From NCBI GenBank assembly GCA_964019425.1, contig OZ025783.1, positions 1,240,001-1,304,000 of the forward strand: a stretch of 64,000 bases of DNA, in the 5' to 3' direction. The position numbers and the translations under genes are program-made. This stretch comes from Flectonema sp. DT1601 (Eukaryota; Euglenozoa; Diplonemea; Diplonemida; Diplonemidae). A model generated the notes under the pieces. That model had not been told where the DNA came from and did not search any database. It saw nothing but the letters and a program-made list of their open reading frames with translations. Shown one piece after another: positions 15,661 to 60,162 of the stretch; position 1 is the stretch's first letter, and each line of letters begins with the position of its first letter.

Positions 15661-16286
15661 CGCACACGCGATGCGCCGGTCCAAAGTCCGGAACCTCACC
15701 ACAAGCGATGGTCAGGAAGGGTGATGGGTCACAGGGCACAAGCGATGCCCATTTAGTTGTCAAAGAGACATGTATGGCAAACTGAACAGGTTTGACATCG
15801 CACAGCACACCAGCACCAACGGTACCATCTGAATATCACTCACTTTTTTCACTAGAATTCACACATTTTCACACATTTTCACATACATTTTCACACATTT
15901 TCACGGGATTTCACTACCAGAAAGCAGCAAAAAATTAAGTGAAAAATCGTGAAAAATCGTGAACACCTCCACCCTGCCGATCGCCTCAAAGAGCTTTTTG
16001 GCTAAAAAACATTAAATCTATACTTGCAGTACACAAACGGTTCTGTTCTTTGTCATTACATGTTCTTTACCGCCAGCCAGCGGGGCAATGAGCAGAAAAT
16101 GATTCCGGTGAGGAAGTGCATCCTCCTCACTCCTGATATATTGTTTGCCACTGGCTGCACAGATGAGATCTTTCACAACAGAACCATGTGCGTTGTCTGT
16201 GATTCTGGATGCATCCCATTGTGTGAGGGAAGAAGATCGTTTTGAGTCACAACTGTTAGCTCCTGTCAACCTACATTTCTTCCCAC
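15661..16286. other. Non-coding stretch before the gene cluster, with a small tandem repeat
   Basis: At 15850-15905 a short degenerate tandem repeat of cacattttca occurs. The rest shows no supported gene. The region marks the change from the repeat-rich left part to the one-way gene cluster. Confidence 0.5.
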
Positions 16287-16298
16287 AGTCACTATATA

Positions 16299-17300
16299 AT
16301 GTATGATCTTGTGATAGTAGGTGGCGGGTTAAGCTCACTTGTTGTAGCATATGAGTTTCTAGTCCACTCGTTAGGGTCCGTATTGATATTAGAAGCAGCA
16401 AGCAAATTGGGAGGTAGGTTGCAAATGACTGATGAAGGCATTGACATGGGGGCTGCGTGGGTGTGGGAGAATGATAACCCACTTGTCATGCAGTTATTAA
16501 AAACGCTGTCATTAAAAACAATGTTGCAGCCGGGTACCCATCCAGGTATGAAACAAAATCGAGTAGTGGGAGGTGCGGCACTTATGGCACACAGGCTGTC
16601 CGATATTATTAAATCAAAGGATGATGGCAACATCAAAATAGAGTCACAAGTAACAAAAGTTTCCTTGGACGAGAAAACAGGTCACATTGTGACAACTATC
16701 AAAGATGGTACCGAGTACATATCAAAACATGTTGTTATTGGCACACCGCCACGTATTGCAAAAAAAATAAATTTTACACCCGAGTTGTCGGCTGGAAAGC
16801 GGAAGGCAGCAGACAACACACCAGCATGGATGTCAAAAGTTGGGAAAATAGTTTTGAAGTACGATGATAAGTGGTGGGATGATTATGAGGCTTTCGGTTC
16901 TTTACCAGCCGATGGTCCTGGCTTTCAAATGTATGACGCCTCTATGACCTCAGCCAATGCGTTAGTGTTATTTTGTCAGTCGCCCCCTGCAGTAAACGAA
17001 GACGGCCTTAAGAAGCTAATCATTCAGCAGCTTACCAGTTCTTTTGGAAGCAAGGCATCTACCCCTAGTGATATATCTCTGACCATTTGGGCGAGAAATC
17101 CATTTATTAATGAAAACCCAAATGATTTCAAAATGTTTCACCTTCCTCCAAACAAAGATTTATCGACTCCAGAGTGGAACTCGAAGTTGTTGTTTGCTGG
17201 GGCTGAGGCGGCCAGACGTCATCCCGGCTACATTGAGGGTGCTCTTGAATCAGCATATGCTGTTATGAATGATCTTCATTCTCAGTGCAGTGCTAATTAG
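16299..17300 (+). CDS. Flavin-containing amine oxidase-like protein
   Basis: The product (333 aa) belongs to the FAD-dependent amine oxidase family, which oxidises amines or polyamines, or desaturates related substrates. The N-terminus has the dinucleotide-binding fold (DLVIVGGGLSSLVVAYEF), followed by the second ADP-binding strand (LILEAASKLGGRL) and GAAWVW. The C-terminus has the matching FAD motif, LLFAGAEAARRHPGYIEGAL. At 333 aa it is shorter than the usual 450-500 aa, the missing part being in the substrate-binding middle. There is no targeting or membrane segment, so a soluble enzyme is expected. The ATG at 16299 is 10 nt after a strong acceptor (cttcccacag, AG at 16287-16288), taken as the trans-splice site. 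No introns. The substrate cannot be predicted. Confidence 0.85.
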   Translation: MYDLVIVGGGLSSLVVAYEFLVHSLGSVLILEAASKLGGRLQMTDEGIDMGAAWVWENDNPLVMQLLKTLSLKTMLQPGTHPGMKQNRVVGGAALMAHRLSDIIKSKDDGNIKIESQVTKVSLDEKTGHIVTTIKDGTEYISKHVVIGTPPRIAKKINFTPELSAGKRKAADNTPAWMSKVGKIVLKYDDKWWDDYEAFGSLPADGPGFQMYDASMTSANALVLFCQSPPAVNEDGLKKLIIQQLTSSFGSKASTPSDISLTIWARNPFINENPNDFKMFHLPPNKDLSTPEWNSKLLFAGAEAARRHPGYIEGALESAYAVMNDLHSQCSAN

Positions 17301-17870
17301 ATGTGTTGTCGGTTCTTTACAGATAAATCTGAATTTCTCGTGAGTTTTCCTCCATCTGATAACAAGGAGGATTCTTAAATCTCTCTCTCTTTCCCTCTGT
17401 TCGATTTCTTCGGAGTGAGTCTATTCTAATTGAATATCGTGTGATAAAAATGCTAAAAAAAAGGGAAACCCTCTATTTCCAAAGAGTTTACCTAGGTCGC
17501 TGATGGTTAATTGCAAAGTTTCGAAAAACTGCCAAGAAGGCAACAGTTCTATGTGCCCTGCACATTTTAATAAAACTTCTCGAGACTGAAAACACCATCA
17601 GTAACTGAAGTACTACCCAATTTGATCCGTTTTATAAGTGAAACATAACTTGTGTGGAGCTGGCGGTTTTCGAAACTTTGTGTTGAATTTCAGGATTTTG
17701 AACAAACTTTGGGGGTTTTCCAGTGTATTTTCTGTGGGGAGCCTAAAATTCTCCGAAAAAGGAAATTCATCTTTGTGCCATGTATGAATTCTCTAAAAAA
17801 AAAAAAAAACGACAATACATATCAGCTCGTGGTTGTTGAGTTACTGTACTCAGAAACATATTCTCCATAC
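17301..17870. other. Intergenic region
   Basis: A 3' flank and spacer between the amine oxidase and ankyrin genes. It holds short A runs and no supported gene; a 77-codon frame at 17652-17885 has no protein-like features. Confidence 0.4.
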
Positions 17871-17884
17871 AGGTATAGAAAATA

Positions 17885-18583
17885 ATGTCAGTATCAGTCG
17901 ATGGTGGGACAAGTGTTTCTGCTACCCCCCGTCTATTCGAAGAATCAATTCCATTAACTAAACTCGAATTGTTGCAACTGGCAGCAGAAGAAGGAGACTT
18001 TCAAGGATTGGTAAGTCTGTTGAATGATAAAAACGTGAACCACTCAGATCCGGTGGCAGGATTAACTCTCCTCTCCATTGCGTCTAGTCAAGGTCACACG
18101 GATATCGTAAAGTATCTCCTTGAACGTGGAGCTGGTCCCGAGATTTCTGACACCAGCGGTTACACATCTCTTCATAGAGCTGTTTGGAATAATCAATTAG
18201 ATGTAGTAAAGCTTCTTTGTGAATATGGAGCCTCACCTGAGAATCCTGGTAGTAAAAATGCTGGATCGGTAATAGGGTTAGCTTGCGTGAAAGATCACCG
18301 CGAAATAGTAAAGTATTTGTTGTTGTTCCAAAATTCAATTATCAATGTTGTTGATCGCACGGGTCGTTCTCCCCTCAGCTATGCCGCTATGTCAGGAAAT
18401 GTTTCTCTGGTTGAGTTTCTGCTTCAGAATGGCTCAATTCCAACTCAGGGAAATGCAATACCACTTTGCAACGCTAGAGCTCAGAATGCCACCACTCAAT
18501 CGCAACAACAGCTATACAGAACTATGTTAGCCCTCTTTGCTAAATACGCAGATTTTGGAAGCTCACTTGCTGGAATACAATAA
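17885..18583 (+). CDS. Ankyrin-repeat protein
   Basis: A 232-aa protein of about five ankyrin repeats, which are helix-turn-helix modules that bind other proteins. Repeat cores are visible: LLQLAAEEGDFQGLVSLL (residues about 29-46), TLLSIASSQGHTDIVKYLL, TSLHRAVWNNQLDVVKLL, IGLACVKDHREIVKYLL and SPLSYAAMSGNVSLVEFLL. No other domain is seen; the last about 40 residues are polar. The ATG at 17885 lies 12 nt after an acceptor (ctccatacag, AG 17871-17872). No intron. The protein is probably a cytosolic or nuclear scaffold; the partner is unknown. Confidence 0.9.
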   Translation: MSVSVDGGTSVSATPRLFEESIPLTKLELLQLAAEEGDFQGLVSLLNDKNVNHSDPVAGLTLLSIASSQGHTDIVKYLLERGAGPEISDTSGYTSLHRAVWNNQLDVVKLLCEYGASPENPGSKNAGSVIGLACVKDHREIVKYLLLFQNSIINVVDRTGRSPLSYAAMSGNVSLVEFLLQNGSIPTQGNAIPLCNARAQNATTQSQQQLYRTMLALFAKYADFGSSLAGIQ

Positions 18584-19017
18584 ATGTTTAAAACTTACAG
18601 TCTTGTTGTCATCTCCTTCCGGAGATGGCTGTTTACACTTCACTCGCCTCCTCACTTGCTGTTTGGTACATGTTTCGGGGTTTTTGTTGAAGCCAAGAAA
18701 CCTAAGTACTGACACAGAAAACATTATTGCCACAGATACGTGGGATTACTCTCCTTATAGTTTCCGTTTTTTCAGTCGTCAATTACACTATAGGTGAACA
18801 CCTCAATTGTATTTTCCCTCTTATTATCTATCAGTTTTTAGAACCGTGAAAATAGGTTCTTAATATTGATGGTTAGAGAAAATGTATTTTTCTTTCTACA
18901 GGTTAACACTCGTATGTATTGGTTTGTTACATAAACTGTTTTGTATTACTGTAAAAAGGGTACATGAAAACGTCTCATTCATATTTAGATCTTAGCGACG
19001 TCAGTTTATTTTCGCAG
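18584..19017. other. Intergenic region
   Basis: This stretch ends in the probable trans-splice acceptor for the transporter gene (tttattttcgcag, AG 19016-19017). I see no gene or repeat in it. Confidence 0.4.
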
Positions 19018-19084
19018 TATCCACAGGCATTGAAGCCATTGTGTCTCCAACGACAAAACAATTCTTCGAAACGATAGTTTGAAA

Positions 19085-20359
19085 ATGAAGCGGCCGGAAT
19101 GTAATTCCGAAGCTGCTCCCGTTCGGTACGCACCCGACGACAAGTGTGAGCAAAAAACTCAACGAGGATGGAAACAGATGCTGGGATTTTGCTTTTTAGC
19201 GAGTGTGATTTGCTACGTAGACAGAACTAATATGAGTGTCGCAATGGTACCTGTATCAAAACAATACAATTGGGACAAGAGTACTCAAGGATGGATATTC
19301 GCAGGATTTTTTATTGGATACGCTTTAACTCAAATACCTGGTGGCATTCTAAGTGGTAGGTTGGGAGGTCCTCAGGTAGTTCTCGCAGCAGTTGGGTTAT
19401 GGTCCTTGTTCACACTGATAACTCCATTTTGCGCTCACGATTTAACACTTGTCATGATTGCTAGAATAGGGCTTGGGATGGGTGAAGGAGCAGCCATGCC
19501 TGCATTTCACAACATCGCCAGTAATTGGTATCCAAAAGAAAATCGAGCACTATGCGTATCCATAGTTGCTGCTGCAATGCAGATTGGTGTAGTCGTGTCT
19601 TTGTTACTATCTCCTGTTGTTGCAGTAAGTTGGGAGCTTGTATTCATTGGCTGTGGTATTGCTGGTTTTATTTGGTGCTTTGCCTTCCGCATGTTCCCAC
19701 CTGAGAATGCCTTTACTCCTCCTCCACAACTTCAAGGACACTCCGTTCCTTGGAGGTTGTTGTTGTCAAAGAAGGCTTTTTGGGCGATTTATATTTCTCA
19801 TTTTGGTGGTAATTTCGGATTCTATATTCTGATTTCATGGTTACCTGAGTACTTTATCTTTTTAGGAGTTCCTTTGGATCAAGTTGGTAAATTCGCTGTA
19901 CCAGCGTACCTCAGTGCAGCATGTTCAGCCTATGCAGCGGGGTGGTTAAGCGACCGATTGATATCTAAAGGTTGGGAAGTTTTGACCGTCAGGCGATCAA
20001 TCTTAGCATTTGCTTTGGGTGGTGCTGCTACATCTCTGTTTGCAGCAACGCTACTAAGCGCGGATCAAGTCACTCCCTTCAGGATGACTGTTTTATTCTG
20101 TTTTGCTCTAACTTGCCATGGTTGCCACAGTGCAGGTAATATGGTGAATATCCTCGATGTTGCTCCTCGATATGCAGGTGAAACTCACGGGATTTCAAAC
20201 ACTTTCGCTACCCTAGCTGGAGTTATTGGAAATGTTTATGTTGGATACATACTGCCGACATTTGGATGGTCAACAGTTTTCTTATCTGCTGTTGTTGTTT
20301 ATGTTATTTCTTTAATGTTCTTTCTTTGTTGGTCAAAAGCAGTTGACCTTACCGAATGA
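19085..20359 (+). CDS. Major facilitator transporter, SLC17/PHT4-like anion transporter
   Basis: A 424-aa protein with 12 predicted membrane segments. Family marks are FCFLASVICYVDRTNMSVAM in helix 1, GWIFAGFFIGYALTQIPGG (helix 2), the GGRLGGP-like loop (SGRLGGPQV), RIGLGMGEGAAMPAFHN (helix 4), and LDVAPRYAGETHGISNTFATLAG near helix 11. These are typical of the SLC17 (sialin, vesicular glutamate) and plant PHT4 anion/phosphate transporters. The cargo is most likely phosphate or an organic anion, and the location an endomembrane or the cell surface. The ATG at 19085 is preferred over an upstream TTG; the nearest AGs are at 19016-19017 and 19025-19026. No intron. Confidence 0.92.
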   Translation: MKRPECNSEAAPVRYAPDDKCEQKTQRGWKQMLGFCFLASVICYVDRTNMSVAMVPVSKQYNWDKSTQGWIFAGFFIGYALTQIPGGILSGRLGGPQVVLAAVGLWSLFTLITPFCAHDLTLVMIARIGLGMGEGAAMPAFHNIASNWYPKENRALCVSIVAAAMQIGVVVSLLLSPVVAVSWELVFIGCGIAGFIWCFAFRMFPPENAFTPPPQLQGHSVPWRLLLSKKAFWAIYISHFGGNFGFYILISWLPEYFIFLGVPLDQVGKFAVPAYLSAACSAYAAGWLSDRLISKGWEVLTVRRSILAFALGGAATSLFAATLLSADQVTPFRMTVLFCFALTCHGCHSAGNMVNILDVAPRYAGETHGISNTFATLAGVIGNVYVGYILPTFGWSTVFLSAVVVYVISLMFFLCWSKAVDLTE

Positions 20360-20852
20360 GAGCATCGGAAAAGGTTGCGGAAATACACTTTTCGGGATGT
20401 ATTTAAATTCGTCTTTACGAGGTTTTGAGTTACCGTACGTGAAAGGATTAAAAAAATATTGGATTGGTAGGCGCTGTTCTACTTTACAGTCCGTCGTTTT
20501 TGCGTATGCATATTATGTGTTTGCAGCAGAGGTTGGATTGATGTAAAAGAAAAAAAAAGGAACTTGCTTTTTTAAATGACCATATTCAACCAATGTACCC
20601 ACTACAACTATGTTCTGAGTGAGTCGTAATGAAAAGTAGTCCTTTCGCTTCTTTATGTCAGTCTGAGATATGCTCAAAACAAAGTTTCATTTCATGATAT
20701 AAGATTGTTTTCATTGTGTAGTTCTTTTCATCATCCAGTGTGCTGCAGCCAATAGACATGAAGTAGTAAAGAAGGTTAAACAGTTATAAAGTAACCCCCC
20801 ACACACAAGAATAGAATGTTTTACTTTGGGTGAAGCCATTAGTTTTCTGCAT
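20360..20852. other. Intergenic region
   Basis: The 3' flank of the transporter gene and the 5' flank of the F-box gene. No gene or clear repeat is seen. Confidence 0.4.
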
Positions 20853-20864
20853 AGCTCTATTAAC

Positions 20865-21639
20865 ATGTCATCGATCTCATGCAATCGAAGTTGCTACGGG
20901 TCACTCCCGACAGAGATGGTCGGAGAGGTATTAGGATGGCTTCCAGAGTTTGGTACCACAGATAAAGCATTGTCGGTATGCAAGAAATGGAATACCATAT
21001 TAAGAAATAATCTACTAAAAGAAATCATGGAACAAGCTGATGAGATTGATTGTTGTGACTTAAAACCATTTTTTCACTGCTCTCCGGCCCTGAGAAGAGG
21101 TATGAGTGCACAACTATTGGACCTCGTCCTTTGTGATATGAGCAAATGGAAAGCTGGGGACTCAAAGTGTCGAGATCTTACGAACTGTATTTATAATAGT
21201 AATATTTTACTAGCCCTCGAATGGTTGTCGTATTTGATCGCTTTTAATACCATCGCAACGGAAAAACAACAATTTCAGGTTGGTGATGTTGTGAAGCATC
21301 TGCTTTTCAGAGAGGCAGGCATGGTGGTCCGCGTCCACGATCAGTATGTTTCTTTTTTAAATTTTTTTTTTAAAAATTATTTTTTTTTAAAAACACTGAA
21401 ACACCTACAGCTGTAAAATGCCTCCCCAATGGATAGCTGCAAATGTCGGTGACATTAATCACCCATTTATTAGAGAACGTTGGTATGATATTCTACTTGA
21501 TGAGAGGTGTGGGGGCTTCATCCGTCATGGAGCTCACCGTTATCACGTAGCCGTAAATCAGGATATAATGATAGACCAGCCTAACTTCCCATTCACTTTT
21601 AACAAAGATAGCGGTAGGTATGAATTAGTAGAAGAATAG
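20865..21639 (+). CDS. F-box protein with YccV/HspQ-like domain (FBXO21-like)
   Basis: Exons 20865-21343 and 21411-21639, intron GTATGT...CAG of 67 bp. The joined product is 235 aa. An F-box (LPTEMVGEVLGWLPEFGTTD, then ALSVCKKWNTIL) at residues about 13-48 should bind Skp1 in an SCF ubiquitin ligase. The second half, starting FQVGDVVKHLLFREAGMVV and continuing across the splice through HDHCKMPPQW, WYDILLD and YHVAVNQDI, matches the YccV/HspQ-like (hemimethylated-DNA-binding) domain. This pairing is known from FBXO21, which also has a SirB1-like middle that is missing here. The intron sits inside the YccV domain, and only the spliced product restores it. The ATG is 10 nt after an acceptor (ttctgcatag, AG 20853-20854). 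Confidence 0.85.
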
Positions 21640-21961
21640 AGATACTTGTGGTTAGTTGAGGGGTTAACGCATTTAAGGGGTTCTCAGGGGAATTTAATAA
21701 AAAAATATTAAAGTCTCGCATGTTTTGCGATTTCCTATAATAACATCTTTTCTCCTGAGCAGAAAGATTCTGACAAATTTTAAGTATTGAAAACCGTCTT
21801 TAGTTATTAAGTCCACATGTAGAACTGGTGGTAACATCGTTATTTTCTTTTTTTGTTTTCCCCTCATACAAACAACAACACAAATCCAAGTCTTACTGAA
21901 ACTAATTCATAAATAATTGTGTATAAACATATTTATCGATTGTCAATATTATTTCTTTCAG
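21640..21961. other. Intergenic region
   Basis: A short spacer with a T-rich part at 21840-21860 that ends in the acceptor tatttctttcag (AG 21960-21961). No gene. Confidence 0.4.
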
Positions 21962-21970
21962 GATACCAAA

Positions 21971-23560
21971 ATGTCAGGAGGTGTACCCTCATGGGGTATG
22001 CGCCCCATACCAACTCCGAATATGGAAACGTTAAGTGGAAGGACAACACCAAATGATTTTAACAGAGAGCGGGACCGATTGACTCCCAGAGCCGGTAGTG
22101 CCAGTGGAAGAACATTCTCATCTGAAACCAGAAGTATGAACCCGACTTGTCCAGCGATATTTATACCTGGCACGACTATGACAAAGGAAGATGTCGATCT
22201 GCTGGAGACGAGATATGAAAGTCAATTAGCTGACTCAAGAGCTCACATAATCGAACTTGATGAACAGGTCCACGAACAGGGTCAACTTATCAGAGATTTA
22301 ACTCACGAATTGGAGCGCTTTCGAGGTCGTGAAGAAACATCAATTCACGAACAGAGAGGAATGTCAGCTCAGAGAATGGAGTTGGCGTCTCAGAATGAGA
22401 GTTTACAAACCCTGTTGGATTCTTGTGAGAAGGAATTGATTGAAAAAGAAAAATCTGTTGATAAATTAAAATTACAAAACAGAGAATTAGCAGACTTACT
22501 TGAACAGACACGCGGTAATCTCGAGGCTGAAACGAGTGAAGCCAACCTCCTCCGAACTGAAGTACAACGGCTTGATTTTGAAATTTCAGAATCGAAATTA
22601 CAACTTGATCACGCAGCAGGTGTTCAACGAAGCCACGATTTATACAAAGCAACTCACGACAAGTTTACTAAGGAAGGTTCATTGTCTTCACAATTAGCTT
22701 CTTCTGTTGATTTATTGAAAACTGAATTACAAGATGCTGAACAAAGAATAATTGACATTGAGAAAACAAGAATTAGAGAGATCCAATCGATCCACAAAAG
22801 TCAAGTATCTCTAATTGACACGATATCTGAAATAATGAGAAGTGTTAGAGAACTGTCCTCAAACGCTGTAGACACACCAACCGAAAGGGTAACTGGTGAT
22901 GAAGAATGGTTAAAAAACGTTCAATCCATGAGAGAAGCCCTCCAATTTATAGACGTAGCCGCCCCTACTCCTTACTTAAAAAAAATTGCCAGCCTAACAG
23001 CACATGGTAATCTCTCAGGTGTTGATTTAGTGACATTAAAAGAAGAAATTGAAGCTATTCAGAGATCACAACAAACTGGCGCACCGCCACCTGAATTCTT
23101 AAATTCTGCGAATAACGGAATTCGACAGGTTTTGTCTGCTGCTAGAGACTCACTGCTGCTGTGTAAGAGGGAGCTACAGCATACTGCTTCACAGCAAGTT
23201 GTGAATAATAAAAAAGTTATGGAACTTGATGATGAGATAAGACGGGTTAAATCAAAGCATGCACCCCTTCTAAACCAACTTCACCGACTTGGTGATCAAC
23301 TCAACAAACATCAGCAAGAGGCGGGTGCGAAAAGTGTTTTGTTGGAGCGGGAGAAACAATACACTCGAGAGTTGCAAGATGCGACCGATGCTTTTGGAAA
23401 GGAGGAAGCAGAACTTCAACAAAAGCTATCTGACGCACATCAAGAAAATAAAAAAATGAAAAGTTTTATGGCTAAACTACAAATTGCTGATGTTCCTCAA
23501 TTGCATACCTTGCTGGCGACTGCTGCCAGTTCAACTCAACCAACCCCTGCCTCAAATTAA
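21971..23560 (+). CDS. Long coiled-coil protein
   Basis: A 529-aa protein. The first about 70 residues are rich in Gly, Pro, Ser, Thr and Arg (disordered head, e.g. GMRPIPTPNMETLSGRTTP). From about residue 75 to 300 and again about 370-510 the sequence is a near-continuous coiled coil, e.g. ELIEKEKSVDKLKLQNRELA. The tail (STQPTPASN) is polar. I do not recognise the family; the layout resembles ciliary or centriolar coiled-coil proteins, and the next gene is the ciliary CFAP410, but this is only context. The start at 21971 lies 9 nt after a strong acceptor; the frame extends further upstream but only through the putative acceptor. No intron. Confidence 0.8.
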   Translation: MSGGVPSWGMRPIPTPNMETLSGRTTPNDFNRERDRLTPRAGSASGRTFSSETRSMNPTCPAIFIPGTTMTKEDVDLLETRYESQLADSRAHIIELDEQVHEQGQLIRDLTHELERFRGREETSIHEQRGMSAQRMELASQNESLQTLLDSCEKELIEKEKSVDKLKLQNRELADLLEQTRGNLEAETSEANLLRTEVQRLDFEISESKLQLDHAAGVQRSHDLYKATHDKFTKEGSLSSQLASSVDLLKTELQDAEQRIIDIEKTRIREIQSIHKSQVSLIDTISEIMRSVRELSSNAVDTPTERVTGDEEWLKNVQSMREALQFIDVAAPTPYLKKIASLTAHGNLSGVDLVTLKEEIEAIQRSQQTGAPPPEFLNSANNGIRQVLSAARDSLLLCKRELQHTASQQVVNNKKVMELDDEIRRVKSKHAPLLNQLHRLGDQLNKHQQEAGAKSVLLEREKQYTRELQDATDAFGKEEAELQQKLSDAHQENKKMKSFMAKLQIADVPQLHTLLATAASSTQPTPASN

Positions 23561-23766
23561 TCTCACTAATAGATAGCCACTTTTATACTTTAGTTTTGTT
23601 ATACAAATTTATAGATTTCACATAGACTACCCAGTATTTTTAATGTAGTAATCCAACGTTTTGTTTAATTATCATTTTTTTTTGTTTTTTCCCTTCTCAG
23701 ATACACAACAAAATTAGACGTGGTAATATATAACAGGTGAATAAATAAGATTTTTTATTTAATAAG

Positions 23767-24466
23767 ATGAATGCAAGTATTTTGACTGAGAGAACAGTTT
23801 TGATGAAGACGAAGTTAGAAAATCTTGATCAAGTTAAAAATTTAAACCTCTGGGGAAATGGAATATCAGACGTTGGGATCATTCGAAAGGTATTATTTTG
23901 TATTCATATAAAAATAATGTTTGAAATTAACAAAAAATAAAATAAAACAGATGACAAACGTCCAAGTCTTATCTCTGTCAGTAAATAAAATTACATCGCT
24001 AGCTGATTTTGCGTATTGTAAACAGTTAGTTGAGTTGTATATTAGAAAGAATGAAGTTAGCGTCCTAGCTGAGGTGAAACACTTGAGAGAGTTATCTAAA
24101 TTACGAATCTTATGGCTATGCGATAATCCGTGTGCTTCACAAAGTAAGTACAGAGCTTATGTTTTAAGAATACTTCCTGGGCTTGAGAAATTAGACAACA
24201 TTGACGTAACGTCTCAAGAACGTCAAGAAGCGGCGAAGATGGCGCAATCAGAGTTCGATCAAATAGAGAGAAGTGTTAGTCCAAAACCATCAGGTGATCG
24301 CTCTTCTCCAACACCACAGGGTGGTCGAACACCTCCTCGACGAGGTGAATCTCTTGATAAGTTGCAAAGAAACTTAGTAACTGCCGTTCTCGCATTAGCC
24401 GATGAGCTCAGCCCCACAGCATTAGAAGTGGTCTATCAAGACATAGCCTCTCGGATAAGGAAATAA
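23767..24466 (+). CDS. CFAP410: Cilia- and flagella-associated protein 410 (C21orf2) homologue
   Basis: Exons 23767-23889 and 23951-24466, joined at a 61-bp GTATTA...CAG intron in phase 0; the product is 212 aa. The N-terminal half is a short leucine-rich repeat array: NLNLWGNGISDVGIIRK, MTNVQVLSLSVNKITSL, LVELYIRKNEV, LRILWLCDNPC and an LRRcap-like YRAYVLRILPGLEKLDN. These match CFAP410/C21orf2 block by block (LSVN, LYxRxN, LWLxxNPC, VLRxLPxLxKLDN). A Ser/Pro-rich linker and a C-terminal helix (ALALADELSPTALEVVYQDI) follow, as in the tetramerising helix of trypanosome CFAP410. The protein acts at the basal body and in cilium formation with NEK1-type kinases. A strong acceptor (cccttctcag) ends at 23700. 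Confidence 0.9.
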
Positions 24467-25045
24467 TCTTTCAAATAACCCCATAGTCTAAGGGTGATCG
24501 ATCTTTTTGTTTCCTTTCCTTATCTAATTATGATATTCTCGTGAGTTTTTTTTTTTTTTTTTTCCTCACAAGAATAATTTTTCTGTTTATGGTTAACTGA
24601 GTATTTAAAAAAAAAAAAAAAAAATTACACGAAAAATTATTATTCGTGTTTCTTAACAATATTATTTTTTTTGCAACAGTAGGTAATTGGGATTTAACCC
24701 TATTTTTTTTTTTTTTTGCATTTAACAAGTATTGTAAGAACGAAAAAAGAATGTTGGACAGCACACGTAAACCTCCTTTAGCCTTATCAGTTTAAGTCGG
24801 TTCACGGTTTCGTGCACAAACCAAAAATACCTTTCTTTACTATCGTGTCAAAGTTCTTTTTGAAAAAAAATGGTTCGCTGAAAAAAAAAAAAAAAAAAAA
24901 ATCATTATAATTATAGTTTACCTTCATTACACTTCATATTTTGTTTTTCGTATCAGGATATATCTGAGTAGCCATAAACCGTCCAACAATATTATGGTAG
25001 TTTTATATAATATAAATAGTCTTTTTAAGTTATTCAGATTCATAG
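24467..25045. other. Intergenic region with poly(A)/poly(T) runs
   Basis: Contains long A and T runs (24547-24563, 24605-24623, 24701-24718, 24881-24900) and one copy of dispersed repeat family 1 (24718-24826). No supported gene apart from the next small frame. Confidence 0.5.
24718..24826 (+). repeat. Dispersed repeat family 1, copy a
   Basis: This roughly 105-bp module starts ttaacaagtattgtaagaac, includes gaatgttggacagc and ends near cggttcacggtttcgtgcac. Nearly identical copies lie at 28471-28575 and 63031-63136, in the same orientation, and a diverged piece at about 60685-60728. There is no coding potential. Confidence 0.8.
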
Positions 25046-25056
25046 CATAACGTATA

Positions 25057-25293
25057 ATGGTTGGTGCGTTGGGTTGCAATCCACCACCTGGATCGAAAGT
25101 GTTGGACGATAAGACCATCATACCCGGGCATCAAGAGTACAGTAATCCGGAATCAGTTGTGGAAGGTAGTCAGTTTCCAGATATACAGCAATGTGTGAAT
25201 GATGTTCCAAAAAATTTCGAAGCAGAGTTTCGATGGGAATATGCAAAGGGAATTGCGGAGGGTATTGCAATGAACCCTGAAAGGACAATATAA
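25057..25293 (+). CDS. Small hypothetical protein (78 aa)
   Basis: A 78-residue frame begins MVGALGCNPPPGSKVLDDKT and ends FEAEFRWEYAKGIAEGIAMN plus five residues. It has balanced amino-acid composition and no low complexity, unlike spurious frames nearby. The ATG is 11 nt after a catag and 19 nt after ttattcag, the same layout as the neighbouring genes, and the strand agrees with them. The pattern is soluble, with no membrane segment. I do not recognise a family. Confidence 0.55.
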   Translation: MVGALGCNPPPGSKVLDDKTIIPGHQEYSNPESVVEGSQFPDIQQCVNDVPKNFEAEFRWEYAKGIAEGIAMNPERTI

Positions 25294-25496
25294 TAACATT
25301 TTTTTTTTTACTGTGGAAATAAAAATTACTTTCCTCGTTTTTTTTTTCCCCTTCAACTAAGTTGGTTAACTGTGATAATAATATTGAAAAAAAAAAAAAA
25401 ACCAAATTCGGGTTTGGATGATCGACGCGACTACGAAGTCGTTCTTATTAGCATCAACCCCAAGAGAGGAATACACAACTTATTGATAACTAATAA

Positions 25497-25620
25497 CTTA
25501 CTGATGAAGGCCTAAAAAGGGACAAGTAGTATAAGATTAAGACCTGAAACTACATATTCTATTACCCTTTGATGTTAGGAAACTGCAGAAATGAATACTT
25601 TTCTTTTATTGATCTCTACT
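25497..25620 (+). repeat. Dispersed repeat family 2, copy a
   Basis: This module starts acttactgatgaaggcc, includes gggacaagtagtataagatt and gaaactacatattctattac, and ends near gcagaaatgaatac. Close copies lie at 56850-56990 and 62390-62500, with a fragment at about 51628-51655. Confidence 0.75.
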
Positions 25621-25675
25621 TTTCTTATTCTCACTTTTCTGTTCTAAAATTAATGATACTAACTTATTCATCCTC

Positions 25676-25840: not shown

Positions 25841-25859
25841 TTTAAGGACTTTCCATAAA

Positions 25860-26428: not shown

Positions 26429-26520
26429 TGATTTCACGCACCCCGTTCAAAAAAAAAAAAAAAAAAAAGGAAAAATTCTCAAGTGTTGGCATACTTGTTA
26501 ATATGTTTTTGAACGCAGCA

Positions 26521-26562
<42 letters not shown>

Positions 26563-27107: not shown

Positions 27108-27129
27108 AAAAAAAAAAAATAAATAAAAA

Positions 27130-49215: not shown

Positions 49216-51418
49216 GCGATAGCTGTAAGGATAATCTGAATGGATTTCTTTTTATATATTTCTCTCTCTTGGGTTTACACAGTCTTCCCAATTCGCTGTA
49301 GATTTATTATCGATTTCTTTTTTTTTTTTTTTTTTTGAGATCAATTCACCGTTTATGCAAAATTCAAAGTTTTTTTTAAAGAAAAAAACAAACAAACAAA
49401 CAGACAAACAAAAAAAAAAAAAACACAACCAATTAAAAAAAAATTTCACTTTTTTGTTATGTTCTTTTGGTACGGCAACAACAACTACAACAACAACGAA
49501 AAAAACAACCTCTCTTTACAAAGTCAGGAGATGAACACTAATTCAGATTAAGAGCCGTTTATTTATTTATGTTTAAATGTTATCTACTTCCCCTGTTCAG
49601 TGTTATTGTCCGCGATCAACATAATATAAATTGGCCTTTTCTATATTGTTTGATCGGAAGAAGTTAATCATCCTACTTAGTAAGTATAGATAAGATAAAT
49701 GTTATTTTTTTTTGTTATTTATTATTTTGCTTTGATTTGTTTTGTTTGAGGTTTTTGTCTGAAGCTTTTCTTGGGAGTTGAGCGAAAATTGTATGTCATT
49801 GCGTTCAAGATTAAGATGTGTTTGATACTTTTGTCAAAGCTCGACAGTCTTTCGCACTTAGAGTGAAATGAAGTTGAGTTTTTTGTCTGACTGTCGTTTC
49901 CCTCACACCCCTCGCCCTTAAGAATATCTCGATTCTGACAACACGGAAAAAGAGATGTGTATGCAGCTAAGTTAGAAACATTTATTATAATGTAAAGTCT
50001 CTCTACGTCAGACGCAGAGTGTTTACCTTTTCTAACATTACCTTTACTAACGTTTATTTTTAGTTAAGTCTGGTACAATACAGATATTTATTTCTTCATA
50101 AATAAATTTCAATTCCCCTTACCCTCAGTTTTCAAGCTGTAACGACCTGCAGGATGGGATGCTCAACCTGCAGTGCGTAAACAGCATTTCTTTCTCTGGT
50201 AGTTTATTTGAAGTATGCGATTTTGTGGACAGAATCCAGTTATGATGATTCATGTCTAATTTGTTGCTTGTTAACCCCCCTTGATTTATTTATCCAAGTC
50301 CCCTCTCCCTCAAATTACCCCCCTTGTGAAGTAATATTATTGCTCTAGGCTTATTGAACTAGCCTGGATGACATACTTAGTTGCTTTTTATGGATTTCTT
50401 TTTTTTTCCATGAAAAGTGAACGATTGCTACCTACGTGATACAATCCTCTCATTGAGTATGGCAACGAGCCTCATTGTAGGAGAAATTCATTAGACACAT
50501 CTGATTCACGTGTCCACAACTTTAGGTTGGGGCAGTTTTTGTTGTTGAATTCTGTGATGTGCTTTTTTGACATATAGTTTTCTCTCTCTCATGTGTTTTC
50601 GTTGGGATAATGTTTTGAATTCGAAAAAAAAAAAAAAATAAATAAAAAGACCGAAAACCCTGTTTATCCTCTTTGCTTCTTTCTCTTAAAAATGTGTAGG
50701 GAAAATTTTTTTTTTGATAGGAGAGTTTTTTTTCTGCGTTTCTCGCTGTGCTTCCCTTTTAATTATTGCTGTTGCGCTTTGGTGTCTAAATCGGCTAGGG
50801 GTATCATTTTAGCTTACTCCCAAAGCTTGCGCATTTTTTTTTTTTTTTTTTTTTTTGTAGTTAGTTCGCACCAGTCGGCAGTAATTTAAAAGCACGCAAT
50901 AAATTTTTTTTTAATTACTGAAAGTATTGCTGGAAGTTTCTTCTCTGAATCGCCACTTAGAACGCGATTTTTTTTTTTTTTTTTTTTTGCTTCTCTTATA
51001 CGCGACTACAGGCAGTTGGCTTTTTTCACGCCGACTCGGCTAGCAGTGTGCACAGTCAGTGGACATTTTTGATACTTTTGAACGCATGTTGGTTACCTTT
51101 TTGGTGTCTTCTCAATCAAGACAATTACAACACATGTTTGTACGACGTAGTTCAGTTGTTGGTCCTCCACTGTATTGTGATTATCATTTATTTTATACAT
51201 AATTTTTTTTTATGACCAGACATTTGTATATGTGTATTTTTTTTTTTTTTTTTTTTTTTTCCCTGTATCCGTGTTTGGAAGTTGAATCCGAACTGTATTG
51301 GACGTCTTTTTATCAGACAAAAAAAAAAAAAAAAAAAAAAGAAACAGAAAAAACTTGTACTGGTTGTACACACTTAACGAGCACATGATAGGTGTTTTTT
51401 TCCCCTCCGGTGATCGTT

Positions 51419-51535
51419 TTTATCGATACCAATTGTTGATTTCTTATATTGCAACCAGGTTTGGCCGAACCTTATTCTCGTTTTAGCCGGTTTCAAGTTG
51501 CTTTCCATTTAATATTAGTATCAAATTACCCTCTT
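51419..51535 (+). repeat. Dispersed repeat family 6, copy a
   Basis: About 115 bp (tttatcgataccaattgttg, ttatattgcaaccaggtttg, gttgctttccatttaatatt) is nearly identical to 63386-63500. Confidence 0.85.
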
Positions 51536-52176
51536 ATATTTTAATTTAGATCTAATCATTCGCTAGATCGGTTTTGTTTTTCTTCAAAAATTCAGACAAC
51601 CATGTCCATCACACTACTGAAATGGAGTCCTTGGAACTTACCGATGAAGGCCTTAGTTTTTTTTTTTTTATAAAATTATATAGGGCTCCATCTTATATAT
51701 AACAAAACCTTTGTATTCTACCACTTGCGCAATTTCTCACCGATTCGGTTCTGTGTTTTTATTTAATGATAATAGACAGTACGTTTTAAAAAAAAAATTA
51801 AAAAAATAATAATCCTGTGCTCATAATCGATGGGTTGATTTTTTTCCCCCCCTTTCTTTCTAACAAATTGCTTTAAAAAAAAAAAAAAAAACAAAAACAT
51901 ATTTTGTGGTTACTTCCTTGACAGATAGAGAATAGTCTGGTCAGTCTTGGTCAAGAGAAATCCTCCGAGAAAAAAAAGCTTATGTACTTCTTTTTTTTTT
52001 CTCGTGTGATCCCACACGTAATTATTATTGTTATTATTTTTTGTTGATTTTTTCCCCCCCCATAATTATACATAACATTACATCCAGGAAGAAATGATAA
52101 TCAGCACTATTTCTTTCGATTCCGCATATTCTTTTTTTTTTTTCCCTTTCAATTCTGAGTATCACCGATGACTGTT

Positions 52177-52250
52177 AGCCTCTGGGCAAGGTGGGAGCTG
52201 AAATTTGATTACTTCCAGTCGAAGCTATAAAACTACAATCTTCGCGATTG
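52177..52250 (+). repeat. Dispersed repeat family 4, copy b
   Basis: Contains gttagcctctgggcaaggtg and ggagctgaaatttg, then ttccagtcgaagct. Copies lie at about 48779-48850 and 61465-61530. Confidence 0.7.
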
Positions 52251-52336
52251 GGTACTTACTGATGCGGGCTATCCAGACCCCTCGTAGTCATCAGTTCTGT
52301 ATTTTGCTAACTGACTAACCAATGATCCGGAACAAG

Positions 52337-52372
<36 letters not shown>

Positions 52373-54118
52373 TGGGAAACTAAAAAAGATTAAAAATAAG
52401 TATAAAATAAATATTCACATTTATCTGTTCTGATGGCACGTTTTCTTTTAATATTTACGGTGCGTGCTTTTCAATTATTATTTTTTTTTTTTATTGGTAT
52501 GGTAAGGAAAAAAAAAAAAAAAAAATGATTAATTCAGATTATATCCATACAGTCATATGAATAATTAAATACTTTAAAAAAAAAAAAAAAAAAACGATAC
52601 GACTGTTAGGAGGTTGCAGAATCACTGTGAGCAGTTCTTTCCTTTTTCCTTTTTTTTTTTTCCCCTTTTCTTGTGATTGAGTCATAATCATCGATTCGAT
52701 CTTGATATATCAAAACATACGTTGTTACTTTATGTTTAATTATTATTATTATTATTTCACTCCTGTGCGTGATTACACAATTGAGATTTTTCTTTTTTTG
52801 GTACAGTTTTTTTTCCGTCACATCACTCTGGTCTTATTTGTATAGCTAATTTCTTCTTCTATCAAGGGTATTTTTTCCACACACGATACAACGAATATCG
52901 GGTGGAAAAAAAAAAAAAAAAAAAAAAATTAGTTCCTCAGAATGTGAGTGCGTTGAGACCAATCTTTCTCGTTGTGAATAATCACCCAAGTGAGTTGTCT
53001 TTTTTTTACAAGTAAATCTTTTTTTCTAATAATACAACATAACAGTCAGACATAGCCTTTGCCTTGTTATTGTTTTTTTTAAATCTTTTTATTTCATTAT
53101 TTTTATTGTTCTTTCTCGTCGCATCATCTTCTGCCCTGCTTTTTTTCTTTTTTTTTTCTTTCTCTTTTTGCACCGACAAAATGGGAGAAGAAACTATTCA
53201 GATTAAGAGCCGTTTATTTATTATGATCAAAAAAAAAAAAATGTTATCTATATTACGTCTGCGATCAACAAACTATAAAGGCTTATCTGAGCGGTTTTTT
53301 TTTTCACCCCCATTTATACTAATGATAAAAGATTGCATGGGAACTTATCGTGGCCATGACTGCGTGCAAAAAGGGATGAGTGTGACTCAGAAGTGTTCTT
53401 TCCTTCTTATTATTTTATTTTATTTTATTTTATTTTCATTCATAATTACATTATCGTTTGCGTCTTTTTCTTGAAGGCGATTTATTAACCTTCAAAACTA
53501 TTTAAGAGGAAAAAAAGAAAAAAAAAAAAAAAAAGAAGCATAGCTGAAATTAATCCAAGTAGGTCTTTATAAATATAATCAAACATTTCATCTCCCTTTG
53601 ACAATTAAGTAGCACTGTCGTCGTGTTGTTATTGTAATGTACGGAAGACGTCCTTGCATATCATTCCTGTATTTTTGATAAGCTGCAGCCCTCGCCCCTC
53701 CTTGTAGCGCTGGAAGGCCAGTGGTGGCTGCTGTCTGATTCTGATTCCCTTTTAGCTTATTACTCGGAAAAACAGAACAAAACAAAACCCATAGTTTGAT
53801 CACCGTACTCATGCGGATAAAATCGACTATTATTTTTATTTTATTTTTATTGTTTTTCTAATATGTGCAGGTGCTCGTTTGAAATTTATGCGCATTCTGG
53901 CAATGGGATGTTGTTGTGTTAGTGCTTTCGATTTTTTTTAAATAATTTTTTCACATTCTTTTTGGCAAAACGTCTCAATGATGTTGCTGTTTTTATTTTA
54001 TAACTTCTTTTCATCCATCGCAGGAGTCTCACAGTGAGCTCGGTACCTAAGGATACCTACCTGTGAGCTCGGCTTCATGTTTGGATGAAAAATATCACCC
54101 CCTTCTTTTATGTTCCTT

Positions 54119-54119
54119 T

Positions 54120-54150
<31 letters not shown>

Positions 54151-54153
54151 TTT
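54119..54153. repeat. TTTA microsatellite
   Basis: About eight to nine tandem copies of a tttat-type tetranucleotide, some 140 bp upstream of the next gene. Confidence 0.9.
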
Positions 54154-54291
54154 GTGTTTTCCTTCAAGCAAAAGGCTTCCTTTTTACTTCATCTGAATTA
54201 TACTTCAGGTTACTACGGTAATTCGTATAAGCAGTGTTTAGCGACCGTGATTTATTGTTACTATCTTTATTAAACAGATACTTCACAACAA

Positions 54292-56833
54292 ATGTCTCTC
54301 TCCGCAGTTATCGGAGAATTTAGCGACAAATTGTTTAGAGGGGGGGAATTGAACTTGGCATCGACAGCTCAATTAATATCTTCTATGAAGACACCTGAAG
54401 GGTGTGGTGACCTTCTTCATAGTCAGCAGTTAATTCAGCAATACCTGTATAATAATATTTCTACTGCTTACAGTGAATGGTTGCAACCATTAGACGGGTG
54501 GAGTTCAGATAGTGAAGTCCCACCTCTACTTGACTCGAGTAGTAGTACAGTCAATCTTATTGACGGAACTGGTACAGATATTTATGAAAATTTTAAGTTA
54601 AAAGAGATTGACCACCCTCAGTACAACGGCAGTGAAAGCGATCTCTCTGAGTCTCGTTGCAATGAAATAAAAAACTTGCTGAGCGAAGTCGATGAAATGG
54701 AAGACACCAACTCTCAAGAAGCAGAGATCTGTACTGCGACTCCAACTGATGAAGACGACTCTGATAGTTGTGATGAGATTCTTCAACAGTCAACTATTGA
54801 CTACTTGGATACTACTTTCCCAAATAGACGCATCGAACTATTTCCTGAAATGCGATTGAAGGAAGCTACTGAATCCTCAGGACAGTCCACATCACTTGTT
54901 GGAGGTGATGATTCACAACATCAATACATCGACAGCCACACTTCAACTCCAACTGGTGAAGACAGCACTTCCGATAGCTGTGATGAGATCCTTCGAAATT
55001 CAACTATTGACTTCAAGTTGGGGACAACATTTCCAAGCAGATGCTTCGATGCCCAATCTGTGGTACAAACTTCGCCCACAACTGAAAGTAACAAAAGTCA
55101 ACACGACTCTGAGGGACTACCGGACTTGAACACTTGCACCCTAACGCTAACTGGTGAAGACAGCACTTCCGATAGCTGTGATGAAATCCTTCGAAATGCA
55201 GCAATTGACGTAGAGTTGGGTGTCATATTCTCAAACAGCTGTATTGAAACCACAGCCAGTGGTGAGTCAGAGTTGAAGATATGCACCCTGACACCAACTT
55301 GTGATGACAGCGCTTCCGATAGCTGTGATGAAATCCTTCGAAATTCAACTATTGACTTCAAGTTGGGGACAGCATTTCCAAGCAGATATTTCGACACCCA
55401 ATCTGTGGTACAAACTTCGACCATAACTGAAAGTAACAAAAGTCAACACGATGATCCCGTCTCTGAAGGACTACCGGACTTGAACACTTGCACCCTAACG
55501 CCAACTGGTGAAGACAGCACTTCCGATAGCTGTGATGAGATCCTTCGAAATTCAACTATTGACTTCAAGTTGGAGACAGCATTTCCAAGCAGATGCTTCG
55601 ACGCCCAGCCTGTGGTACAAACTTCGCCCACAACTGAAAGTAACAAGAGTCAACACGACTCTGAGGGACTACCGGACTTGAACACTTGCACCCTAACGCC
55701 AACTGGTGAAGACAGCACTTCCGATAGCTGTGATGAAATCCTTCGAAATGCAGCAATTGACGTAGAGTTGGGTGTCATATTCTCAAACAGCTGTATTGAA
55801 ACCACAGCCAGTGGTGAGTCAGAGTTGAAGATATGCACCCTGACACCAACTTGTGATGACAGCGCTTCCGATAGCTGTGATGAAATCCTTCGAAATTCAA
55901 CTATTGACTTCAAGTTGGGGACGATATTTCCAAGCAGATGCTTCGATGCCCAATCTGTGGTACAAACTTCGCCCACCACTGAAAGTAACAAAAGCCAACA
56001 CGACTCTGAAGGACTACCGGACTTGAACACTTGCACCCTAACGCCAACTGGTGAAGACAGCACTTCCGATAGCTGTGATGAAATCCTTCGAAATTCAACT
56101 ATTGACTTCAAGTCAGGAGCGGCGTCGCTGAATTCCGTTGAAGTCACAAGAGGAAGGGATGACTACAGACAGTCTCTGGAATTAATGTCGAGTACAACTG
56201 TAAGAAGTGAGCCAAGTAATGTGACAAAAGTGATTCAACCATTAGATACTTTTGATAACACTTTACAATATAATCCAATACCAGATACGACTCGTATTAA
56301 TCAAACTGATGAAGACAGTACTTCAGATAGTTGTGAAGAAGTTCTACGAAACATTGAACTTGTAGTACAGCATTCAGAACCACCAGAAGTAAACATCATC
56401 CCTCTGAATGAGTCGACTGAATCATCCTATCTCACTCGACTGCAAAGTGAGAGTAAAGTCAGGCTATTAAAACAGAGAATTCATGGTATGCTTTTATAAC
56501 AATATAACAACAAATCATCAACTTTTCACAACAGGACTTCTGATGAGACAAAACGAATGGATGCGCACTCAACGAGACTTAGACATTGCTCAGAAAGACT
56601 TGTCAAGGATGAGGTTAGCTTCTGAAAACAATCAAATGTTAAGGGAACACCGTGATTTATATCTCGCAGAAAGAAATCTTTTCAAACAGAGAATGGATTC
56701 TGCAGAGCGTTCTCTGTTAGAAGAACAAGCGAAGACTGTGAAATTGAATGCGGTGGTAGAAACACTACTTCAGGAATTCGATAAACTAAAACAAAACAAT
56801 CGGGAAACTCAAACAACTATAAGACGAATGTGA
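54292..56833 (+). CDS. Acidic Ser/Asp repeat protein with C-terminal coiled coil
   Basis: Exons 54292-56485 and 56535-56833, intron GTATGC...CAG of 49 bp; the product is about 830 aa. The first about 110 residues are non-repetitive. Nine copies of an acidic motif (EDSTSDSCDEILRNSTIDF and variants) follow, separated by TFPSRCFDAQSVVQTSPTTE-like linkers. Units alternate in a higher-order pattern (STIDF, AAIDV, ASDSC...STIDF), with a DNA period of about 545-552 bp (markers at 54961, 55513 and 56056). The motif suits casein kinase 2 phosphorylation. The second exon encodes a charged coiled coil (LLMRQNEWMRTQRDLDIAQK to the end). Family and function are unknown. The ATG is 14 nt after an acceptor (attaaacag, AG 54276-54277). 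Confidence 0.85.
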
Positions 56834-56849
56834 GCAACGATAATATAGA

Positions 56850-56990
56850 ATGAAGTCCCTTAGAACTTACTGATGAAAGCCTAAAAAGGGACGAGTAGTA
56901 TAAGATTAAGACCTGAAACTACATATTCTATTACCCTAGATTAGGAACTGCAGAAATGAATACCTTTCTTTTGCTTATCTCTATTATTTA
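56850..56990 (+). repeat. Dispersed repeat family 2, copy b
   Basis: Begins gaatgaagtcccttagaact just after the stop of the previous gene and follows the copy at 25497-25620 closely (tagtataagattaagacctg, gaaactacatattctattac, ctgcagaaatgaatac). Confidence 0.8.
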
Positions 56991-57265
56991 TTCACACTAT
57001 TCTATACTAATAATTAATGATACTAACTTTCTTTATATTCTAATCCGACTCTTGGTAATCACAAGAGTTAACCTTCAGCTACCATCTCCTCCCTCTCTTT
57101 TGCCTTCTTCACGAAATTTGTTGCTGGTTGTTGTTGTTTTGATTATAATCTTATGTACTTTAGTCAGGTAATTGAATTGTATTATTGTTGTAGTTGTTAG
57201 TCATAAGGATGTATGAGTAGAGGTTTGTTTAGTATTTACTTCCTCCTGCAGCTATTCTTAATTAA

Positions 57266-58731
<1,466 letters not shown>

Positions 58732-59156
58732 ACTCCCGATCACAATAAAGAAAAAAAAAAAAGAAAAAATACGTAGAAAATAAAACATTGTACCCATCTT
58801 CCCAAGTCTTGAAACTGTCTAAACGACTATATCATGATACAGCCCCTTTCAGTGCGAGAATTATAGGTGTTGGTCTTCTTCACCCACTCTCTGTTTTTCT
58901 TTTTGTTTTTTCAAATTTTATTTTTTAATTCTATTTGCTGAACGCGGAAAGCTATAGATGTACAGCGGGAAAGAAAAAAAAAAAAAAAAAAGTTATCAAC
59001 TCGCCATGTTATTAGTATTCTTCATTTACAAGTGAAATCCACAAAAAACATAATATGACGAACTAGCAAGCAGTCAATTTTTTTAGGATTCCACTTTAAG
59101 GATTACAGTACCGTGGGCTATGTTGTATTTACGTTGTAGCTTTTTATTCTTATTAG
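58732..59156. other. Intergenic region
   Basis: The 3' flank of the tubulin gene, with A runs near 58750 and 58975 and the acceptor ttattcttattag ending at 59156. No gene. Confidence 0.4.
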
Positions 59157-59184
59157 AAATTTAAAAAAAAAAAAAAACACTCAA

Positions 59185-60162
59185 ATGGTGAGTCTATTAC
59201 CTTTAGTATGTGTGGTAGCAACTCAATCAGCATGTGATAAATTTAATACTGACGGTTGGGAAATGGTTCGTCACATAGCTGAGAATGATAGTTCATTCTT
59301 CTCTATGAGTGATAATGCAACAGGGGTCGCTTCATCATTTGGAAACGCAACAGATGACAGTCGTAGTTGGAATGTTATGTTTGCTCATCGTGATTTCAAC
59401 GAGTATCTATTCTCAACTGGTGATTGTGAGAAATATCTCATAGTCGATCGAAAAGAACTATCCGCCAGCACATTTAGAAAAGAGATTCGAGTTAAAAGCA
59501 CATCTATTCACTCACCACCACACGTTCTTACAAAGACGTCATCTTTGATTAGACTTGAAGAACCAATGGGTACTAAGAGGGCAGGTATATATCCACAGGG
59601 TGGTGTTTTATATGCGGAAAAGATCTCAACAGATGGTGGAGATGGTGAGCTATTACGATCGAATGGAGGATTGAGTATCCGAATTCGAAAATCAAACCAC
59701 TGTAAGAAATTCATATCAAACAGATGGAAGATTGTTCGACATCTAAATCCGAGTGATGATACTTTTTATGATGTTGATGATAAGGCTGTTGGTACTGCTG
59801 CGGCTTTCGGATCTCCATCCAGTCCTCCTCAGCTTTATGATCTGTCTTGGGGTATTCCCTTTGCTCATGCATCGTTTACTGAATATATGTTTTCAACTGG
59901 TGATTGTCAACATTATCTCATTGTTGGAAAAGAATCAATTTGGTCAAATGATGAAATATCAATCAAATCAAGCAGCGTGTCGTCTCATCCGTACACCATC
60001 TCCCGTCTTGGTAGCTATCCATTATCACTTAAGGAGTATTGGCCGACTGCTCCTCAACATAGTGGAGTGATGTACGCGGATTCTGGTTTAGTTGCGACTC
60101 AAGGAAATTCAAATTATCTTCGTTCTCATAATGGACTCAGCGTTTGGATACGTGGAAAGTGA
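59185..60162 (+). CDS. Secreted protein with two copies of an unknown domain
   Basis: A 325-aa protein with a probable signal peptide (MVSLLPLVCVVATQSAC). The mature part is a tandem duplication: residues about 17-168 and about 173-325. Matching blocks are CDKFNTDGWEMVRHIAENDS / CKKFISNRWKIVRHLNPSDD, MFAHRDFNEYLFSTGDCEKY / PFAHASFTEYMFSTGDCQHY, GGVLYAEKIS / SGVMYADSGL and LLRSNGGLSIRIR / YLRSHNGLSVWIR. Conserved Cys residues flank the domains, so disulfides are likely. The fold resembles a lectin or fibrinogen-like extracellular module only in general character; I cannot name it. The acceptor ends at 59156, 28 nt before the ATG. No intron. Confidence 0.8.
   Translation: MVSLLPLVCVVATQSACDKFNTDGWEMVRHIAENDSSFFSMSDNATGVASSFGNATDDSRSWNVMFAHRDFNEYLFSTGDCEKYLIVDRKELSASTFRKEIRVKSTSIHSPPHVLTKTSSLIRLEEPMGTKRAGIYPQGGVLYAEKISTDGGDGELLRSNGGLSIRIRKSNHCKKFISNRWKIVRHLNPSDDTFYDVDDKAVGTAAAFGSPSSPPQLYDLSWGIPFAHASFTEYMFSTGDCQHYLIVGKESIWSNDEISIKSSSVSSHPYTISRLGSYPLSLKEYWPTAPQHSGVMYADSGLVATQGNSNYLRSHNGLSVWIRGK

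Follow-up and report, generated by a model that had tools for sequence, protein, structure and literature searches.

Comparison with described spliced-leader systems

Spliced-leader (SL) trans-splicing is a textbook property of Euglenozoa, and in kinetoplastids unidirectional gene clusters are found together with a leader whose 3' end is nearly identical to the one described here. The present analysis concerned a stretch of 64,000 nucleotides (the window; contig C4, positions 1240001–1304000) in a genome of 89.5 Mb in 92 contigs. The window contained a unidirectional cluster of 17 host genes at 16299..60162 on the + strand, taken from the list of open reading frames (ORFs) with the start codons checked. 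The whole is almost certainly explained by a diplonemid-like unidirectional cluster, the mRNAs of which are made by SL trans-splicing at AG dinucleotides before the start codons. Trans-splicing, as put forward in the original prediction, was supported by SL gene arrays, by retrocopy junctions at parental AGs and by an acceptor signal better than chance.

In Diplonema (Paradiplonema) papillatum, SL genes alternated with 5S and U2 genes, the leader measured 39 bp, and the SL was present on essentially all mRNAs (PMC10161547). Unidirectional gene clusters, mostly GT-AG introns and 110 SL copies were described for the ~280 Mb assembly of this species, and the three-gene SL–5S–U2 unit seemed to be absent in other diplonemids (PMC10161547). 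The present genome resembled D. papillatum in the SL–5S linkage, the leader of 38/39 nt, the unidirectional cluster and the GT-AG introns, whereas it differed in its two-gene units of 5S and SL, its size of 89.5 Mb and its 621 exact SL gene cores. Diplonemids were described as having a U2-type spliceosome and GT-AG boundaries in most introns (PMC12621601). In two hemistasiids most introns were noncanonical (PMC12621601), whereas the few introns examined here were GT-AG. Kinetoplastids carried a 39-nt leader on all mRNAs and had tandem SL genes (PMC1888695), but they were extremely intron-poor (PMC12621601), whereas cis introns occurred in the window.

SL RNA genes in the genome

The leader 3' end with its donor, allowing at most two mismatches, was located at 318 + 483 = 801 places, compared with 0 + 1 for the reversed pattern. 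A 34-mer spanning the exon end and the donor had 239 + 382 = 621 exact copies genome-wide, and among the 100 matches listed the SL gene cores were on C16, C20 and, for the last one, C22. The tandem unit on C16 was 623 bp long and combined a 5S rRNA gene, identified by Rfam, with an SL gene reading ACCAACGATTCTAAAGCTACAGTTTCTGTACTTTATTG/GTACAGTC... at the junction. Tandem SL RNA genes, which had been predicted from the window, were thus borne out by the 621 exact cores and by 5S-linked tandem units where these were read. On C20 (1257199–1289579), some SL units were spaced 1,695 bp apart, compared with 610 bp for others. This spacing would fit an insert of ~1,085 bp shared by several of the units, which could be an SL-array-specific element.

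The leader was 38 nt long as defined by the ends of retrocopies, or 39 nt when the preceding A of the SL gene was counted, and the 38-nt leader looked diplonemid. A 110-nt SL RNA stretch, the 3' end of which was chosen by us, gave a predicted fold with a z score of -3.85, in which the donor was located in a stem-loop and a separate stem was formed at the 3' side. The unpaired stretch before this 3' stem, AUUUAGCCAA, resembled no clear Sm-site consensus. Genes for the U2, U5 and U6 small nuclear RNAs (snRNAs) were all found in the genome. U2 lay outside the SL–5S units read, which contained 5S and SL only. Six U2 snRNA genes were located on C11 (1325324–1477946), on one strand and ~2–77 kb apart, an arrangement different from the SL–5S–U2 unit of D. 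papillatum.

Leader-tagged retrocopies mark acceptor sites

The exact 3' 26 nt of the leader without a GT donor were found at 92 places, 79 with A, C or T as the next base and 13 with G followed by A, C or G. Twenty-one of these were read, 19 over 501 bases and two (L095 and L096) over 66. At least 35 nt of leader were joined to other sequence in 18 of the 21, and in these near-complete copies the sequence changed abruptly at both ends; L065, L095 and L096 contained only ~26 nt. In 12 of the 19 longer stretches the leader was followed by an ATG within 81 nt and by a reading frame with no stop in the 98–117 codons read.

Parents were identified for four junctions in three gene families, and in all four the parental sequence had an AG directly before the point at which the leader was joined. 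At C17:649284, the leader was joined to a protein-kinase gene (Pfam Pkinase) at CCCCTCC.... The parent on C18, identical at 100% over the 334 nt compared, read ...ATTCCAG/CCCCTCC..., and its 72-nt GT-AG intron was absent from the C17 copy. In a first multicopy family, the parents read TTAG/CAAATT in 4/4 cases, which matched the leader junction exactly. In a second multicopy family, the parents read TGCAG/TTATTT and AAAAG/TAAAAG, again in 4/4 cases and in exact agreement with the leader junctions. The leader-tagged places with parents are evidently retrocopies of trans-spliced mRNAs. The expectation that a shared leader would be joined exactly at the AGs thus held for genomic retrocopies, at 4/4 parental junctions, and stopped short of the window, for the genes of which such a copy was not found.

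Acceptor signal upstream of the start codons

An AG upstream of the ATG had been reported by eye for 17 of 17 genes. All 18 coordinates, with two choices for one gene, did end in AG, and in every gene the named start was the first ATG 3' of it. The spacing between AG and ATG was 6–28 nt as claimed, except for 67 nt in the major facilitator superfamily (MFS) transporter gene and 66 nt in the gene named CFAP410 in the original prediction. The AGs were therefore real, but the count overstated the signal, since loose sites were common in controls. Any YAG within 30 nt was found in 14/17 genes and before 54% of 169 control ATGs of the window (57% of 86 on the same strand), and this loose test was set aside as uninformative.

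A strict rule was fixed before counting; it consisted of a YAG within 30 nt, at least 12 pyrimidines in 18 positions and no AG at -15 to -3. It held for 8/17 genes, whereas among the 169 controls the rate was 6.5% (binomial P 5e-6). For another 200 kb of the genome, 43 ORFs of 250 aa or longer were taken, and 28% of them complied; the rates were 10% for 660 control ATGs and 7.6% for 158 ATGs internal to those ORFs. In addition, 19 acceptors from beyond the window, those of 16 tubulin paralogs and the three retrocopy parents, served to train a matrix. The training AGs were hand-picked, each lying either at a known junction or at the plausible position upstream of its ATG, and were independent of the tested genes; 13/19 of them satisfied the strict rule, compared with 6.5–10% of control ATGs at 30 nt. 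When the 16 non-tubulin genes were scored against 829 control ATGs with 40 nt searched, the matrix gave an area under the curve (AUC) of 0.91 (P 6e-9), which fell to 0.89 with 80 nt searched. Scores of at least 5 bits were obtained for 11/16 genes and 9.5% of controls. The top-scoring AG differed from the listed one in the genes starting at 19085 and 25057.

The beta-tubulin gene was found at 21 further places in the genome, and the upstream DNA of the 16 that were read was mutually unalike by eye. An AG was nevertheless located 12–25 nt before the ATG in 16/16 of these paralogs, as a YAG in 15/16; three of the distances were approximate, as the fetched stretch ended short of the ATG, and a nearer AG was also present in five.

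Weighing of the alternatives

Several observations weigh against trans-splicing as a full account of the window. The strict rule held for just 28% of the 43 ORFs taken at random elsewhere, a low rate that we suspect to come from mobile-element ORFs and misplaced starts. The genes starting at 20865, 36181 and 59185 were individually unremarkable: 26%, 20% and 19% of controls, respectively, scored as well, rising to 35%, 27% and 26% with 80 nt searched. The query of the first SL search was the leader 3' end and donor of kinetoplastids and diplonemids. In 7/19 of the leader-tagged 501-base stretches, no long frame followed from the first ATG. Finally, when 90-nt pieces of the window genes were compared with the genome, no leader-tagged copy of them was found, so that the acceptors of the window are putative ones. 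Of the 39 matches of these pieces, 17 were the genes' own places, 21 were further beta-tubulin places and the last was an A-rich stretch of 38 nt on C20. The 92 leader places included none of the 39, and the window contained no leader relics.

The acceptor signal alone would be the same for cis and trans splicing, and the evidence in the window comes from DNA only. Each gene might instead be driven by a promoter of its own and contain, in its 5' untranslated region (UTR), an intron that ends at the AG before the ATG and is removed in cis, and GT-AG cis introns do exist in the tubulin gene of the window and in the kinase parent. This arrangement is very unlikely, since every gene would have to contain a hidden 5' intron, whereas the retrocopies with a parent carry a common leader at those AGs instead of local exons, and the leader comes from gene arrays of its own. 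Selective reading of composition noise in T-rich intergenic DNA would account for the loose YAG criterion being satisfied by 54% of controls, and for 3/16 genes doing no better than one control in four to five. It would account neither for the strict-rule result (P 5e-6) and the performance of the outside-trained matrix (AUC 0.91, P 6e-9), nor for an AG kept at 12–25 nt across 16 unalike tubulin upstream regions, and chance of this kind is hardly credible as the source of the AGs.

The 92 leader copies without GT could also be viewed as decayed SL RNA genes rather than retrocopies. Three of the 21 read hold only ~26 nt of leader, and SL genes with a mutated donor are possible among the 71/92 outside the 21 read. 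On the other hand, 18/21 show near-complete leaders whose two borders are both abrupt, and where a parent was identified, what lies downstream of the leader is that gene from its AG on, once minus its intron; decay as a general origin of these places is highly improbable. Trans-splicing therefore remains the preferred explanation. Under this explanation, the pre-mRNAs of the window, probably polycistronic, would be cut into single mRNAs by SL trans-splicing. A separate SL RNA of ~110 nt, transcribed from tandem genes alternating with 5S rRNA genes, would provide the leader of 38 or 39 nt, and the spliceosome would join it to the pyrimidine-rich AG acceptor close upstream of each start codon. 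Trans-splicing of the 17 window mRNAs themselves is inferred from their acceptors together with the evidence of the wider genome; likewise, the polycistronic transcript and the 3' end of the SL RNA are inferred.

Leader relics on a LINE-like family

In dinoflagellates, Slamovits and Keeling reportedly described in 2008 a 'recycling' of processed cDNAs. SL-tagged retrogenes and tandem leader relics were documented in that group (PMC6050394), and the present genome resembled it in containing genomic copies of SL-bearing mRNAs together with tandem leader relics. An intronless leader-first copy with its parent elsewhere, as in dinoflagellates, was represented here by one case, the kinase on C17 and C18. 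The lineage and the leader are unrelated to those of dinoflagellates, and here a LINE-like family was also leader-bearing. In trypanosomatids, LINEs started with the Pr77 promoter and gave unspliced transcripts (PMC8190864, PMC4748587). Non-LTR retrotransposons are a shared feature of these euglenozoan genomes, whereas the LINE-like family described here began with the host leader. The main text on D. papillatum used 'retrotransposon' three times and 'pseudogene' not at all (PMC10161547). A euglenozoan report of SL-tagged retroposition was not found among the open-access titles and abstract starts listed, a scope that excluded subscription papers, preprints and supplements.

A reverse-transcriptase domain on the same strand lay within 8 kb downstream of 10/79 leader places, compared with a mean of 0.9 and a maximum of 4 in 500 random placements; contig sizes were approximated in this test, and scoring covered only 150 of the 759 reverse-transcriptase candidates. 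In one LINE-like family, 6/12 matches extended to the leader junction. One of these six copies carried a single leader right at ATTTAC. In the other five, a leader, either whole or cut at its 5' side, was followed by a shorter leader piece of 16, 16, 16, 22 and 10 nt, respectively. The two AGs of the leader end at positions 16 and 22, which predicts relics of 22 and 16 nt, and these lengths fit 4/5 of those observed. The four relics would fit a further round of transcription of a tagged copy, with the new splice falling within the leader that it already carried. Three copies with a TGTGTG insert had relics of 16, 16 and 22 nt, so the relics do not all stem from one inherited event. The 10-nt relic (TACTTTATTG) was located behind the leader in two families (L052 and L097), and its start did not follow a leader AG; it may represent a slip of reverse transcription.

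It is reasonably probable, on the balance of these observations, that mRNAs are retroposed with their leader and that LINE-like elements borrow the host leader to form their 5' end, being re-leadered in each round, often at the AG of a relic. If so, the LINE-like element would need neither its own promoter nor its own 5' end, and the SL 'recycling' of dinoflagellates would have a second, independent counterpart. SL-tagged retroposition, including the leader relics carried by a LINE-like family, is less expected than trans-splicing itself.

Putative acceptors of the individual window genes

All putative acceptors were on the + strand, and each AG was verified; matrix scores are given in brackets. 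The amine oxidase gene (Pfam Amino_oxidase; ATG 16299) had its acceptor at 16267..16288 (11.0). That of the ankyrin-repeat gene (Pfam Ank; ATG 17885) was at 17851..17872 (6.4), with a second AG 6 nt on. For the MFS transporter gene (Pfam MFS_1; ATG 19085), the acceptor at 18996..19017 (4.0) left a leader of 67 nt, and an alternative AG within 80 nt scored 6.5. A gene of unknown function (ATG 20865) had a weak acceptor at 20833..20854 (1.3). The 529-aa gene without a Pfam match (ATG 21971) had 21940..21961 (8.0), and the highest score of all was given by 23679..23700 (16.7), 66 nt before the putative CFAP410 start at 23767. Two small genes followed, one (ATG 25057) with an acceptor at 25024..25045 (3.7) and a nearby AG scoring 5.4, and one (ATG 25860), which we take to resemble V-ATPase subunit F, with an acceptor at 25825..25846 (6.9).

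The class-V aminotransferase gene (Pfam Aminotran_5; ATG 27130) had its acceptor at 27086..27107 (7.4). In the RPA1-like gene (Pfam Rep_fac-A_C; ATG 31336), alternative acceptors within 31294..31329 ended at 31315 and 31329 (8.7 and 3.7, respectively). The acceptor of another gene of unknown function (ATG 33481) was at 33447..33468 (4.7), and that of the BRO1-domain gene (Pfam BRO1; ATG 36181), a weak one, at 36145..36166 (2.7). The lipoxygenase-like gene (Pfam Lipoxygenase; ATG 40804) and the 636-aa gene without a Pfam match (ATG 42585) had theirs at 40769..40790 (7.2) and 42539..42560 (6.6), respectively. At the end of the cluster, acceptors were located at 54256..54277 for a repeat-rich gene (ATG 54292; 7.9), at 57230..57251 for the beta-tubulin gene (ATG 57269; 11.6), the AG being kept in 16 paralogs, and at 59135..59156 for a gene of unknown function (ATG 59185; weak, 2.8).

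Host lineage and other features of the window

The RPA1-like protein had eight database matches, the top one being the window's own protein. The next were two unnamed proteins from eukaryotic transcriptomes at 71% and 42% identity, and the named ones were all from Trypanosoma (3/8, at 32–33%), with two weak unnamed matches besides. From these matches, the protein is taken as euglenozoan. Beta-tubulin was uninformative on taxonomy, as plants, algae, animals and Leishmania were intermixed at similar identity among the 120 matches listed. The host looks like a diplonemid-like euglenozoan.

An ordinary GT...AG cis intron was read in the beta-tubulin gene at 58473..58594 on the + strand, and its excision continued the tubulin frame (...WYTGEGMDEMEF...). 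Cis and trans splicing would therefore coexist. A BRO1/ALIX-like gene appeared to be split over 36181–40252, with Pfam BRO1 in 36181–37563 and a sub-threshold ALIX domain in 39335–40252. Between the halves lay a minus-strand ORF (37734–38852) with no Pfam match, as if an element were inside an intron.

Rfam at gathering scores gave no match over the window, and no tRNA was found in it. An intergenic motif occurred in three dispersed copies (25490–25568, 56859–56937 and ~62400–62480), with a CTGATGA box and then CTGA boxes ~40 nt on. It looked ribozyme-like or C/D-snoRNA-like, and Rfam gave only a sub-threshold snoRNA match at the one copy searched. A long array with a 14-nt unit (GTGACACCTCAACA) occupied the intergenic region 29577–31181, within a larger repeat spaced 337–645 bp. 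Furthermore, a 91-nt dispersed intergenic element was present in three copies (24744–24834, 28496–28586 and 63058–63148), with 82–91% identity to the first.

Implications

SL trans-splicing is a mechanism already established for the group, and it is the leader-tagged retrocopies that deserve further attention. Since the window genes most likely receive their 5' ends by trans-splicing, their models should start at the AG rather than at a promoter. The leader-tagged copies serve as DNA records that mark real acceptors, the 5' end of the leader and the removal of introns without RNA data. Through these records, SL-tagged retroposition becomes comparable between two unrelated lineages.

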